From positions 310,001-374,000 of the forward strand of contig JAGTXK010000138.1 of the NCBI GenBank assembly GCA_019096195.1: a stretch of 64,000 bases of DNA, read 5' to 3'. Shown piece by piece: positions 55,663-62,012 of this stretch (position 1 is the first letter of the stretch; the number at the start of each line of letters is the position of its first letter). Source of the DNA: Boletus sp. NGJ. Lineage: Eukaryota; Basidiomycota; Agaricomycetes; Boletales; Boletaceae. The notes under the pieces are model-generated. The model was not told the origin of the DNA. It worked only from the letters and a program-made list of their open reading frames with translations, and did not search any database. Position numbers and translations under genes: made by a program.

Positions 55663-58600
55663 CTAGTAAACGGCACGGAAGGTGACTGCCAACATGACGA
55701 CGATAACCGCGATTCTTTGCCTAGAATTCCTTCTTTCCTCATTCCTAGGTCCATCACCCATCCTGTGGGTAAACCAATCGAATCTGTGTCCCAGGCATCC
55801 TATCTCCCCGCGTTCCAATATGCCAAACACTCGTCCCCACTCACTGGCCATCCTAATCAAAGAACTTTCCGCGATGGCGATGACCCACTTGGGACCGGCG
55901 AGCGTCGAGTTGATGGCGGTCGTCCGGTTGGCGTCTCGATAGAGGTGGCGATACATGTCATGAATAATGTTACCGACGATGGTCGTGCTCGCGAGATGGA
56001 ATCCAAGAACAGACGGAAATGCAATGCCTGTTAAAAGGAATAGAGGCGCCCCAACGCATACCAGGGCGCAGCTGATCAAGAACAGCTCGCCGCTGTTCGG
56101 TGCATGGTCGATGTAGGACAGATCAGGATACAATCTGATGAGACCTCCGTCGCCCTTCGACCACATGTAAAAGCGATGGTACGACCGCTTCCCTCCGTTC
56201 CACCAGGGATGGGTGACGACGATAGCTGGGGCGGGGTGAAATCCCTCTTGTTTCACGGGAAACCACAAATTTCTTTTCCGTCGACAAAAGTCGATGTCTT
56301 CACCTCCTCCCGTCTTAGGAAAGTGAAGATCAAACTCCACGCCATCATCGATACGACGCGCGATTAGGTTTGCTGTCACCCCCCACGGCATGTCAGTCTC
56401 TCCACGCATCTTCGCGGCGATGTCCCAGAAGTATGTGACGCCTGCCAGATGCACAGCGGTGGTAAAAATGGAGTAGGCTGCAGGGAACTGTGCATTTCCG
56501 ATGAAGCCGACTGCATTCGCGTTTGCACGGATGACTTTCTCAGCTTCGACGAGGAGGTCTGGTTGTGGGGTGACGTCGTCGTCCAAGAAGAGGATCCACT
56601 CTGCAGCAGATTCCTGCATGCCCCGATTACGTGATGCGGATGCACCAAGGTTCTTTTCATTGGTGCGGATGCGAACATCCGGCCTTGAGGCAAATTTGGT
56701 CTCCAGCTCGACGCGGGCGGGCGAACGCGGGTCGTCGATGATGATGATGAACATCGTGGTGCACGTCGGGGATGGTTTCAGATTCAGCATGGGTTCCAGA
56801 AGCTGGAGTTGGACCCGGAAGCTAGGTATCACAACGTCCAGGGTAAGCTTACGTGAGACTGCTGGACAATACCTCAGCAACCACTCTTCGGTGGTAGCTG
56901 TTGCTTTGTCCAAGGGGCCAAACGTCCACCCTTTGGCATGTTGTTGACGATACCGTGCCGGTTGGCTGCCTCCGATCCCATTCTCGATTCTCGCGGTGAA
57001 CATCCTGGAGCAATCCCAACGACGATAGAGCTGGTACAGGAAGGGATCACCATCTTGGTTGATGAAGATTTCGGGAATAACGTCCCCATCGAAGATATCT
57101 AGATGAGTGCGGTGAACGATGGGAAAGGTCGGCATACCGGGGAAACTGGTATCTGTGAATGCCACGCATCCAAATCCGTGGGGGGTGCCTGTGCGGTGTG
57201 CTATCTGAGCAAACTCCGCGTGGGCATCCCTGATCCAACCTTCATCCTTGAGGACGACGTCGTCTCCCATGAGGACAAAGTAGTCCGACCCATCCTGCCA
57301 GGCTTGCTTGGCAATCTGTCGCCAGATGGCGCAAACATGTCCAGCAGGGTGTTTGCAGATTTGGATCGCCACATCACAGATATTTTGCGACGCCAGTTCA
57401 GCTTCGGCGATGTTCATGCCGGTTTTGCTGTCGCTTCCCAATAGCAAGGGGTCATCGTGGTCGATCGCGAGATAGACTTTGACCACAAATCGTTGACCAC
57501 CCAGCTGATGGGTGTCCCGCCAGGTCGTACGAGCGAGTGATTCGGCGAAATCCTTGAGGAGAGACAGGCATTGGCCTGGAGGATTTGAACCGCGGGAAGT
57601 GATAGGGAGGAGAATGGCGAACTTGATATCCTTGTCTGCCAAGTCGACGATTTTGCTGCGGCGCATCATCTGCAACATCAAGATACGTTCCTCGTCGTCC
57701 ATGCCGTCCACGATCTTTCTTATCTCACCCTGGATCCACTTCCCCGTCTGCGCCATCCCGTCTTCCAGAGAAACTTTTGGGGTCCAACCAGATAAGACCA
57801 TCTCTGCGAGGTGGTTGTCTGAGTTTCTTGCGCGAACCCCGACCGTTTTCGCGTCGGTATTTGGTCGAAACACGACATCCGAACCTGGTTGCAGCCCTGT
57901 CCACCTGACAGCTATCTCTCCGAGGTCGTTGATCGTAACGGCGCGATCGGAACCTATGTTAACCGGCTTATCGTAACCGGACGCCAGGAGTGCCAATATG
58001 GCATCCACACAGTCGCTGATATATAGAAAACTGCGTCGCTGTCTGCCATCGCCCCAGATCTCGAGTTCCTTCGGGCCCCTCCCCGCTAAACGCATCGCCA
58101 ATGCTTTCCGCAAGAGTGCCGCGGGGGCTTTCTCACGTCCATCGTTCCATGCACCGCGCGGACCAAACACGTTGTGGAAACGCGCGATTTGGACACATAT
58201 GTTGTATGCGCTGCGTTGGACGAGGAGCTCGGAGACGAGCTTTTCGAGGCCGTAATGTCCTTGCGGTTCGGGTGTCCCTCCTTCCCAAACGTCATCTTCC
58301 TTGAGCGAGACATCGGTGTCGAGATTCTCTTGCTTATGCCCCGGATAGACACAGGCTGAGGAGGCGTAGAAGAAGACGCGCACGTTGGCGCGGATGGACG
58401 CCACCAAGACGTTGGACGTGATGCGTGAATTGGTTTGATAAATCGTGAGGTCGTTGCCTTCGTGGATGGTCCCCATTCCTCCCATGGTGGCAGCAAAATG
58501 AAGGACAGTATCGATGCCCTTGACAGCGCGGTGACAAAACTGCTCGTCGCAGAGGTTTCCGACAAGCGTCTCGTGACAGATGGGTTCCTCGAACACAGAG

Positions 58601-58811
58601 GATGGGACAATATCTGCTATACGGACGAAGGAACCTAGGGTAAAGAGGGCTTTCGCCACGTGCGACCCCTCAAAGAAAGTTTTAGCTTCCAAAGTCTTCA
58701 TCCGGTAGTGTCCTGGCTCACGATGAATCCATTCCCACCTGTTACCAAGAACTTGCGATGAGGGTCGATGGGGAGTACGACAAGGTTCGGCGAAATTTTT
58801 GCCTTGGCCAT
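55663..58811 (-). CDS. GDP-mannose 3,5-epimerase-like / dual glycosyltransferase fusion
   Basis: Start ATG 58,811 (MAKAKISPNLVVLPIDPHRK). A single 53-base intron (58,669-58,721) restores the NAD-binding loop TGGNGFIGSHVAKAL; the rest is one exon, total about 1,031 residues. Residues about 20-345 match GDP-mannose 3,5-epimerase: 'AATMGGMGTIHEGNDL', 'FFYASSACVYPGHKQ' (Cys136), 'YGLEKLVSELL' (Tyr169/Lys173), 'GREKAPAALLRKAL' (Lys210) and 'VGVRARNSDNHLAEMVL'. About 380-620 is a GT-A-like domain with 'DYFVLMGDDVVLKDEGW'. About 638-872 is GT2-like with 'LDVVIPSFRVQLQLLEP', 'EWILFLDDDVTPQPDLLVEA' and 'GGGEDIDFCRRKRNLWFP'. Two membrane helices follow (about 891-937). It probably makes GDP-L-galactose or a related nucleotide sugar and transfers it to a membrane acceptor (inference). 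Confidence 0.85.
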
Positions 58812-59151
58812 CCCCTTGGCTCAAATATGTTTTTGGAAACACAGAACGACTTGCGTCAAATGCTATAATTCACTTGGGGTCAGGTAGGCGTGAAATCTGA
58901 CCACGGTGGATGTCAGCTTGACCGAGGAAAAATGGACGACGTTCAGAACGGTCCCCACCAGGAACGAACAAGAACATCACCGAGGGGAGGAGGGGGGAAC
59001 AGAGATACGTGCTTTAAATGATTTCCAATCCCACTCTCCGCCTACCTTCGTAAGCAGGGCGCAGCGTTACAATCAAGGTATACGGGAATTCAACGCCCAC
59101 GACAAGAACGGGGGTCTTGAACGTAGGTCCGATGTCTGTGGGCAGCTTCAT

Positions 59152-59466
59152 TCGATAAACCCCGTCTTTGTCTGGACAAGTCGCCTTCATCTCAGAGCAC
59201 GGACGATCACCCAGAAATGGTTTAGGGCGATAAAGCCCGCCAGGAATTACGAAGGCACTCACGCCTTAAGTCCAAAAGGTGGTATGACTGACTCTCCTTG
59301 TCTTTCCGAGGCGGCGGCGATCCGCTCGAGCCTCACATATACGCGTGGCCCTATCTGCACCGTTTCCTTCAATAGCCCACCTCATACCTCCCATAATCAA
59401 GTGAAGTCTCGTCACTTCTGATCCTGGGCTGGCGGTTGTGAAGATTGTCTGCGGAAACAATGAGCA
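59152..59466 (+). repeat. Direct repeat, copy 1 (promoter duplicate)
   Basis: About 315 bases similar to 60,083-60,390, sharing blocks such as GCCTTCATCTCAGAGCACGG and GGCTGGCGGTTGT. It ends at ATGAGCA, the same start-codon context as the methyltransferase-GT8 gene, after which similarity stops. Confidence 0.75.
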
Positions 59467-59693
59467 CTGTGACCAGTGATCTACGGTCAAAGCTGCTGTA
59501 GCGAACATTGAAACATGACTACGCCATTCGTGGCATTCATATTTGCGGAGAACAATAGAAATGCACCTCCTGATAACCGATGTCTGTGTGTCTATGCTGC
59601 TGGTATTCAAGTTGATACCACCACCTATCCATCTTTAACGAACTACCTGGCGGTCATGCAGACTCTTCGTGCACCTGCCACAAATACCCTGCA

Positions 59694-59826
59694 CAGAAAA
59701 ATCCTGTACAGAAAACCTGAATGCGCAGGTGAAGTTCGGCAATTCCGGAACATATGGAATGGGAACTCGGAAGGGATATTCCGAATGCAAAAGGGAAATC
59801 CCGCTGTACAGGTTGAGTTTTTGCTG
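59694..59826. mobile_element. MITE-like inverted-repeat element
   Basis: 133 bases with terminal inverted repeats: CAGAAAAATCCTGTACAG at the left and, reversed, CAGCAAAAACTCAACCTGTACAG-like at the right (a 5-base insertion in the second). AT-rich and non-coding. No clear target-site duplication was seen, so the call is tentative. Confidence 0.4.
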
Positions 59827-60082
59827 TAAATTACTATCTTTTTCGACATCCCCGTCAAAGACACGTATCAAGGTTTCGAATCTCGCTCTACCACTTACAC
59901 TATTCTAGAGCGGGCATATAAATCTCTATGGTTACTGATTAGTTCTTTTGCCTGTTCCTGACCAAGCTGTCCTTCCGAGTCTCGCGCCCATACCGTCTAA
60001 TGAGGCGGCCGAGAGATGGATGATAACCAAAAAAGACTTTTGTGGGGCAACATCATACACATTGCCGAGGATGGGGAAATTG

Positions 60083-60390
60083 TTCGATAAACGCCGTCTT
60101 AGTCTGGACAAGTAGCCTTCATCTCAGAGCACGGACGATCACCTAGAAATGGTTGAAAGCGATGAAAATTACGAGTGCACACACCTAAAATCCGAAAGGT
60201 AGTACGACTGACTGTCCTTGTCCTTCCGGCGTAACGACGATCCGCTTGAGCCTATCTCACATATACGTGAGGCCCTTTCTGCATCGTTCCCCTCAACAAC
60301 CCACTCCATACCTCCGTGTAATCAGGTAAAGTCTCATACTCATCATATTTGGCTGGCGGTTGTAACGATCATCTGCAGCAACGATGAGCA
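60083..60390 (+). repeat. Direct repeat, copy 2 (leader of the methyltransferase-GT8 gene)
   Basis: Counterpart of 59,152-59,466, immediately upstream of and including the ATG at 60,384. Offset between copies is about 924-931 bases, so small indels separate them. Confidence 0.75.
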
Positions 60391-62012
60391 TTCTGGATAC
60401 GAATGCCACCGCCGATTTCTATGAATTTACCCCGACTCAAGATTGGTTTTCATTCAATAAGCCCGCATGGCAGAATCTTTTTCACCTCGTCCTTTCCAAG
60501 GCGCCTCGCGTGCTCGAGATCGGATCCTGGGAGGGTCGTTCGGCAGTATTCCTCCTGACCACCCTCTGTGCTACGAGTGGAGAAGTCGTTTGCATTGACC
60601 ATTTTGACCTCATGGGAACAGCGGAGGGACGAGAACGGTATCGCAAACTCGCCCACAATGTCGCGCTCACGGGTCGTCCTGCTCGCGTGCTCCCCCAATT
60701 CAGCGTCCCCGCCCTGTGTACCCTATTGTTGGAGGAGATGAACGAGGACCACGAGGCTGGGTTCGACTGGATTTATATCGACGGGTCCCATCGTTCAGAT
60801 GATACACTTCTTGATGCAGAGTTGGCATGGCGGCTAGCGCGGCCCGGCTGCATCTTCATCTTCGACGATTACAACTGGTCTGAACAGCCTTTCGACAGCC
60901 CACACCACCCACGTCGCGGCATCGACGCCTTTCTTGCAGTCCATAAAGGAGAGTACGAGCAGCTATCGACGAACCCCGAACAGTACCAGATGGTACTGCG
61001 GAAAAAGACCCCGATGCGCATCGGTTTTCTTCTTGAACCAGGCAGGGATAGACAACTATATGACGCTTTTGAATACGGAATAAACGTTGTGCTCACCGTC
61101 GACTCTGCATATGCCATGGCAGCGGCGGTAACTCTCCGCAGCGTCGTGGAACACTCCCAGGGTCGCATCACCCTCTATATCGTCGACTGCGGTCTCCTTG
61201 CGGAAGACAAGAGGAAGATCGAAGCGTCCTTGCCTATGAATTCGAACGTTACTCTTCTCTTTATAGCGTTGCCTCCAAATTCTTTGGCCTCCAACATGGG
61301 TGCCGTCTGGGCCAAGGTCGACATGATGAAATGCTTGCCTGTCGAGCGTGTCCTTTATCTAGATGCAGACATTCTGGTGCGCAGGGACTTGAGAGAGCTG
61401 TGGAACACCAACCTCAGTGGTCGCTCGCTCGCCGCGGCACCTGACGTAGGATGCCCGATGGGACACCCAGGCGTCCCACGAGGAGAATACTTCAATGCCG
61501 GCGTGCTCCTGGTCGATCTCGCAAGAACTCGCTCGACGCTCCGAGAGCTCGAAACGTGCTGTCGCGAAATGGTGCACTCCAAATTTCGTGAACAGGACGC
61601 ACTCAATGTTCACTTTAAAACCGACTGGGTCGCGTTGAGCCTCAAGTGGAACGCACAAGGACTCGGGACGTACGCGGAGTGTACGTCTGTGGACAGAGAA
61701 AAGCTTTGCTTGAGAGAGATGGAGGATCCTGCGATCGTCCATTTTACTGGACCAGTTCATCCCCGGATGGAAGTCGTGTTGAATCCTTATGTGCAACCTT
61801 ACACAGCCAAGCCATGGGGGTATGCTGGTGCGCCTAGACACCCGTACAAGAGGGAGTGGTGGGACATGTCAGAGAAGACCGACTGGAAAGGCTGGAAGGA
61901 AACGACAGACTACAAAGAAACGTGTGAGAAGGCTAGAGTGGAGGTATTGAAGGATGCGAGGGAAGAATTCAACAGACGGTTGGAGTCAAGTGAGGACGGT
62001 CGATTCCTCTAG
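60384..62012 (+). CDS. SAM methyltransferase-GT8 glycosyltransferase fusion
   Basis: One uninterrupted exon of 542 codons from ATG 60,384 (MSILDTNATADFYEFTPTQD). Residues about 38-210 form a class I methyltransferase of the TylF/Methyltransf_24 type: 'VLEIGSWEGRSAVFLLTTL', 'VVCIDHFDLMG', 'FDWIYIDGSHRSDDTLLDAE' and 'GCIFIFDDYNW'. Residues about 232-485 form a retaining GT8 domain: 'NVVLTVDSAYAMAAAVTLRS', 'ERVLYLDADILVRRDLRELW' with the DAD motif at 327-329, 'EYFNAGVLLVDLA', 'FREQDALNVHF' and 'IVHFTGPVHPR'. All catalytic motifs seem intact. The likely job is adding a hexose to a glycan and O-methylating a sugar or acceptor; substrates are unknown. The lack of introns contrasts with the surrounding genes. 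Divergent from the epimerase-glycosyltransferase gene. Confidence 0.9.
   Translation: MSILDTNATADFYEFTPTQDWFSFNKPAWQNLFHLVLSKAPRVLEIGSWEGRSAVFLLTTLCATSGEVVCIDHFDLMGTAEGRERYRKLAHNVALTGRPARVLPQFSVPALCTLLLEEMNEDHEAGFDWIYIDGSHRSDDTLLDAELAWRLARPGCIFIFDDYNWSEQPFDSPHHPRRGIDAFLAVHKGEYEQLSTNPEQYQMVLRKKTPMRIGFLLEPGRDRQLYDAFEYGINVVLTVDSAYAMAAAVTLRSVVEHSQGRITLYIVDCGLLAEDKRKIEASLPMNSNVTLLFIALPPNSLASNMGAVWAKVDMMKCLPVERVLYLDADILVRRDLRELWNTNLSGRSLAAAPDVGCPMGHPGVPRGEYFNAGVLLVDLARTRSTLRELETCCREMVHSKFREQDALNVHFKTDWVALSLKWNAQGLGTYAECTSVDREKLCLREMEDPAIVHFTGPVHPRMEVVLNPYVQPYTAKPWGYAGAPRHPYKREWWDMSEKTDWKGWKETTDYKETCEKARVEVLKDAREEFNRRLESSEDGRFL

Follow-up and report, generated by a model that had tools for sequence, protein, structure and literature searches.

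A 64,000-nucleotide stretch of the genome of Boletus sp. NGJ (assembly GCA_019096195.1, contig JAGTXK010000138.1, positions 310,001 to 374,000; hereafter the window) carries two divergent genes, gene A and gene B, which may well form a module for glycan assembly, old and conserved among mushroom-forming fungi, that builds a methylated, L-sugar-containing glycan. We put the probability of this reading at roughly 0.55. Its computed basis is the domain content of the two proteins, their conserved catalytic residues, the spread of both genes across the Agaricomycetes, their linkage, and an intron site shared with relatives. The kinds of enzyme involved are known; as far as our searches reach, no description exists of the fusion found in gene A, of its unnamed middle domain or of the conserved pair.

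Gene A (55663..58811, minus strand) runs from an ATG at 58811 to a stop codon at 55663-55665, as read from its open frame and splice sites, and encodes 1031 residues in the order GME epimerase, unnamed middle domain, GT2 glycosyltransferase and hydrophobic C-terminus. Its sole intron (58669..58721, minus strand; 53 nt, GT...AG) lies within the Rossmann glycine motif (GFI|GSH). Removal of the intron restores this motif, VTGGNGFIGSHVA, and the spliced gene reads MAKAKISPNLVVLPIDPHRKFLVTGGNGFIGSHVA..., followed by an unbroken frame to residue 1031. Gene B (60384..62012, plus strand) starts with an ATG at 60384, ends with a stop codon at 62012, and encodes 542 residues without an intron, a methyltransferase followed by a GT8 domain. 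A preliminary description of this DNA had proposed two divergent genes, one with a single intron and one with none, and the frames and the splice site bear this out. Its list of sugar-related domains held for the epimerase, GT2, methyltransferase and GT8, all recovered with Pfam; the additional "glycosyltransferase" in the middle of gene A proved glycosyltransferase-like by motif only.

The GME part of gene A (57715..58757, minus strand) is recognised by a GME profile, catalytic residues and structure comparison. Pfam placed an Epimerase domain at residues 22-269 (E 8e-39). Against family profiles this epimerase gave E values of 1e-98 to 7e-100 with GME and of 7e-37 with the next SDR family. 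The five catalytic residues, C136, Y169, K173, K210 and R311, are invariant across 52 aligned sequences; Y174, K178 and K217 are named in the structure comparison. Judged by profile and these five residues, the epimerase of gene A is specifically a GME, and for this reason we predict GDP-L-galactose or GDP-L-gulose as its product, which strengthens the earlier suggestion of an L-sugar. Plant GME (PDB 2c59, 8sg0), which belongs to the vitamin C and wall sugar pathway, resembles the fungal domain in SDR subfamily, predicted fold and catalytic residues, the identity to two plant GMEs being 40-42%. Unlike the plant enzyme, the fungal GME makes up the N-terminal third of a multi-domain fusion protein, and an ascorbate role is not implied. 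According to their entry titles, the Arabidopsis structures contain GDP-L-gulose as well as GDP-L-galactose. Together with the degree of identity to the plant enzymes, this would suit an active GME that makes GDP-L-gulose or another epimer and thereby supplies a glycan with a different rare sugar, but all five catalytic residues are conserved and no residue examined separates the two products; we regard this variant as unlikely. A search of the 32.8-Mb assembly containing the window (141 contigs) with the whole of gene A gave one match and, in addition, a short, 58-residue match on contig C124 (42% identity, E 4e-8), which looks like another SDR gene.

The GT2 domain of gene A (56224..56838, minus strand; residues 641-845) matches PF00535 (Glycos_transf_2) at 642-745 with E 7e-14 and 52.6 bits against a cutoff of 23.3, and more weakly PF13641 up to residue 845. 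Its motifs DDD (726-728) and GGGED (817-821) are invariant in 52 aligned sequences, which places the domain in the GT2 family. It is followed by hydrophobic helices (55939..56094, minus strand; residues ~889-940). The gene A sequence itself contains one hydrophobic stretch at ~889-924, and the model of a homologue (P0004) has helices at 888-909, 913-940 and 1002-1030. The middle domain (56860..57642, minus strand; residues ~373-633) is GT-A-like by motif, with GDD and N-Q-x-x-D-P invariant. Neither Pfam nor the PDB offered a credible sequence match for it, and the structure comparison with the whole model is silent on this part, since epimerase rows fill the list. PF00535 was matched by 3 of 13 members of the middle-domain family, which we put down to the GT2 parts found in such rows. 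Within the assembly the middle domain gave one match. In viral contigs no relative could be confirmed from the 43 pattern matches of a narrow profile and the 92 of a broad one, and at 80 bacterial and 160 viral GME loci there were 0 matches.

The Agaricomycete middle domains form a clade (support 99/95). Outside it, eight proteins combine the middle domain with GT2 in the absence of GME, one from the EukProt set (P0275) and seven from metagenomes (P0253, P0255, P0263, P0267, P0269, P0274 and P0278). In P0275, P0253, P0255, P0267 and P0278 the same middle domain precedes GT2 as in gene A, but the frames start at the middle domain and have no GME part, in a search that took proteins of up to ~457 residues and would miss longer fusions. 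The fungal gene A therefore appears to have arisen by attachment of a GME to a pre-existing double unit of middle domain and GT2. Four short middle-domain proteins have no GT2 part (P0270, P0272, P0273 and P0254); they come from metagenome contigs and, in one case, from a fragment recorded under the liverwort Calypogeia fissa, which is 54% identical and either genuine or a fungal contaminant.

Both domains of gene B belong to known families. The methyltransferase (60513..60872, plus strand; residues 44-163) matches Methyltransf_24 (PF13578) with E 4e-18 and 66.7 bits against a cutoff of 26.3, and the GT8 domain (61083..61763, plus strand; residues 234-460) matches Glyco_transf_8 (PF01501) with E 5e-27 and 95.4 bits against 24.3. 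In 49 aligned sequences, D133, D161 and D162 of the former and D327 and D329 of the latter are invariant. Gene B differs from other Methyltransf_24 proteins by its fusion to GT8. The best solved relatives of its GT8 domain are the LgtC-type galactosyltransferases (1.8e-25), in which, unlike in gene B, the domain does not sit behind a fused methyltransferase. The methylated product proposed earlier is probable, as judged from the match to the PF13578 family. The genome contains more GT8 matches, some of them broken (C129:503-518 kb, C1 and C46), and among the GT8 loci fetched the methyltransferase domain is present only at the locus of gene B itself. GT8-only paralogues of gene B (L244, L246, L248, L249 and L250) lie clustered on the same contig, ~130-145 kb beyond the window, among them two divergent neighbours and broken copies.

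We also analyzed the distribution of the two genes. With gene A as query, 491 of the 8,000 candidate proteins scored reached E<=1e-3, and gene B gave 468; the best 120 were listed in each case, so that the lists speak for presence and not for absence outside the listed taxa. Identity to gene A over the aligned part ranges from 53 to 91% in its best 120. Among the matches listed, the top-scoring named homologue of gene A is that of Imleria badia (Boletaceae; 84% identical), and Butyriboletus roseoflavus has a partial homologue, which covers 69% of gene A at 87% identity. Named homologues of both genes run from Boletaceae to Tulasnella, all within the Agaricomycetes, by way of Boletales, Polyporales, Russulales, Gloeophyllales, Agaricales and Hymenochaetales. 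The lineages of Tulasnella and Imleria badia were checked. This range does not fit the sparse distribution that a recent acquisition would have called for.

The two lists have 37 contigs in common, matched by size (38 of the 120 gene A rows, 37 of the 120 gene B rows), while 12 small size shifts, used as a control, gave 0 or 1. Because the smallest shared contigs measure only 7,160, 10,024 and 10,433 bases, the genes are close together there. Moreover, four species have consecutive locus tags for the two genes: Bondarzewia (8857/8856), Tulasnella (010532/010531), Pleurotus ostreatoroseus (010337/010338) and Stygiomarasmius (015707/015706). Proximity is thus conserved, and this linkage supports and strengthens the view of genes A and B as a functional pair. 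Alternatively, the two could be neighbours by old accident and serve separate pathways with separate glycans. Such an accident would be in line with the GT8-only paralogues of gene B elsewhere in the genome, with the 82 of 120 gene A rows that have no partner among the best 120 of 468 gene B rows, and with a 1.57-kb intergenic space without a compact shared promoter. The linkage, however, is found in Boletales and in Tulasnella (Cantharellales), an association presumably older than drifting gene order would tend to preserve, and we consider independent pathways improbable. The unpartnered gene A rows may reflect short contigs, the best-120 listing or real separation.

The start codons of genes A and B are 1,572 bp apart. 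The space between them contains a degenerate direct copy (59151..59466, plus strand) of the upstream region and first codons of gene B (60083..60390, plus strand), the latter being its source or sister; the alignment ends within the first codons, and the two are 78% identical over 321 aligned columns, a duplication of ~315 bp. Between them lies a dispersed repeat (59572..59801, no strand assigned) with at least 19 other places in the genome at 66-77% identity. Because of its length, the duplication and the repeat, the intergenic space is not a compact bidirectional promoter, and the notion of a shared promoter space had to be corrected accordingly. The first, degenerate copy may be the remnant of a lost tandem copy.

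In the pathway that we propose for the pair, the GME domain of gene A would turn GDP-D-mannose into GDP-L-galactose, as suggested by its family membership, with GDP-L-gulose as an alternative or intermediate. The GT2 domain, which belongs to an inverting family, and the glycosyltransferase-like middle domain could then transfer the L-sugar, and perhaps a second sugar, to an acceptor at the membrane reached by the C-terminal helices, with the fusion channelling the rare GDP-L-sugar donor. Subsequently, the retaining, LgtC-like GT8 domain of gene B would add a hexose such as galactose, and the methyltransferase would O-methylate the chain, capping or diversifying the glycan. The product could also be a glycolipid of the membrane, such as a decorated inositol-phosphoceramide, in place of a wall or secreted polysaccharide. 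Gene A ends in hydrophobic helices, the pair has few glycosyltransferase domains for a long heteropolymer, and basidiomycetes are known to have glycolipids with several sugars; a glycolipid appears rather doubtful to us.

As a guess from the domains, one candidate product of the module is an O-methylated, galactose-rich mushroom glycan. In the available text of PMC8829048, 3-O-methyl-galactose is described for Pleurotus placentodes, along with a table of other Pleurotus species, and that of PMC6257751 mentions 1,4- and 1,6-linked methyl-galactans of Pleurotus; both papers write the sugar as D. Tentatively, and with less confidence than in the module as such, we can imagine an uncharted GDP-L-galactose branch located in one trifunctional protein, the middle domain of which would represent an undescribed glycosyltransferase family, with the methyltransferase-GT8 partner building a class-wide methylated glycan; some mushroom galactose or O-methylgalactose may then be L or depend on the pair. 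A survey of nucleotide-sugar enzymes in 491 fungal taxa (PMC8092308) sorts epimerase-type enzymes, in its available text, into ten clades with no GME among them, and neither "GME" nor "L-galactose" occurs in its main text. Because this survey searched known enzyme classes, GME could have been missed there and is not ruled out by it. "L-galactose" and "GDP-L-galactose" likewise do not occur in the main text of PMC6298397, which models the sugar nucleotides of Ganoderma, and PMC12295706, as far as its text was available, concerns rhamnosyltransferases. We found no paper on the gene pair or on a fungal GME in the open-licence PMC literature, although such a paper may exist. If our interpretation is true, an additional L-sugar is produced throughout a class of fungi, experiments can be aimed directly at the genes responsible for a methylated mushroom glycan, and the handedness of mushroom "galactose" should be checked. 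It would also imply a new glycosyltransferase-like domain family without a Pfam entry, represented in fungi as well as by at least one sequence of a protist set.

A number of observations weigh against a methylated, L-sugar-containing glycan built by such a module. The methylated mushroom galactose of PMC8829048 is written as D, and the term "absolute configuration" does not appear in its available text. GT2 and GT8 are broad families. The putative glycosyltransferase role of the middle domain comes from its motifs, and comparison of its profile with the GT2, GT8 and methyltransferase domains was not significant. Besides the unpartnered gene A rows mentioned above, contigs matched by size do not amount to adjacency. 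Finally, GME beside GT8 is not a general bacterial pattern, since a GT8 match was present in the fetched flank of only 1 of 80 bacterial loci and of 2 of 240 loci overall, one of them weak. The bacterial case is a Cohnella sugar cluster (L211), in which GME is directly followed by a GT8 gene, with a second GT8 further on. It resembles the fungal pair in having GT8 close to a GME in a polysaccharide cluster, but bacterial GME clusters consist of separate genes, and none of the 240 bacterial and viral loci has the middle domain.

The initial view was that the pair had been acquired together in recent times or had arisen from retrocopies. Long uninterrupted frames had spoken for such an origin, as do the GMEs of bacteria and viral contigs. 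However, a long frame is not unique to the pair, because further stop-to-stop frames of 691 and 541 residues, whatever their status as genes, are present in the window. We therefore inspected the intron site in the 48 listed gene A rows known only from environmental sources, which we take to be unspliced. The site recurs in 14 of them: three read GFI, intron, GSH, and 11 open just upstream of GSH in unconserved sequence. Another 29 begin too far downstream to be informative, and five have the motif intact, owing to a spliced source or to lack of the intron; these five would favour the acquisition or retrocopy origin. All 48 extend over at least 908 residues without a break. One intron at this site plus a long unbroken remainder looks like a family feature of gene A and therefore speaks against a recent retrocopy. 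Recent horizontal acquisition was rejected as well, the best-scoring named relatives among the matches listed being boletes, then other Agaricomycetes. Orthologues throughout this class with the same intron pattern were one half of what the preliminary description had named beforehand as refuting its acquisition story, the other half being unrelated expression of the two genes. With full-length homologues across the Agaricomycetes, that story fails, and a recent origin of either kind is largely refuted and highly improbable.

A quick GME tree of 125 rows (18 fungal, 80 bacterial, 25 of 79 viral picked at random, and 2 plant) agrees with this, as the 18 fungal rows form one clade with SH-aLRT 100. 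This clade is placed next to the plant GMEs and to three rows from Bacteroidetes, with support 83, a placement that does not settle inheritance versus transfer; an older transfer of the GME domain, in the stem lineage, may have taken place. GMEs are common in bacteria, with at least 559 stretches confirmed by a fungal plus viral profile, the best 80 of which were kept. A scan of prokaryote genomes with a fungal-only GME profile gave 61 pattern matches and no confirmed one, the patterns being too narrow. In viral contigs 118 stretches were confirmed, of which 80 were kept. The GME-like genes of the viral contigs (L002-L081) are 32-45% identical to the fungal domain.

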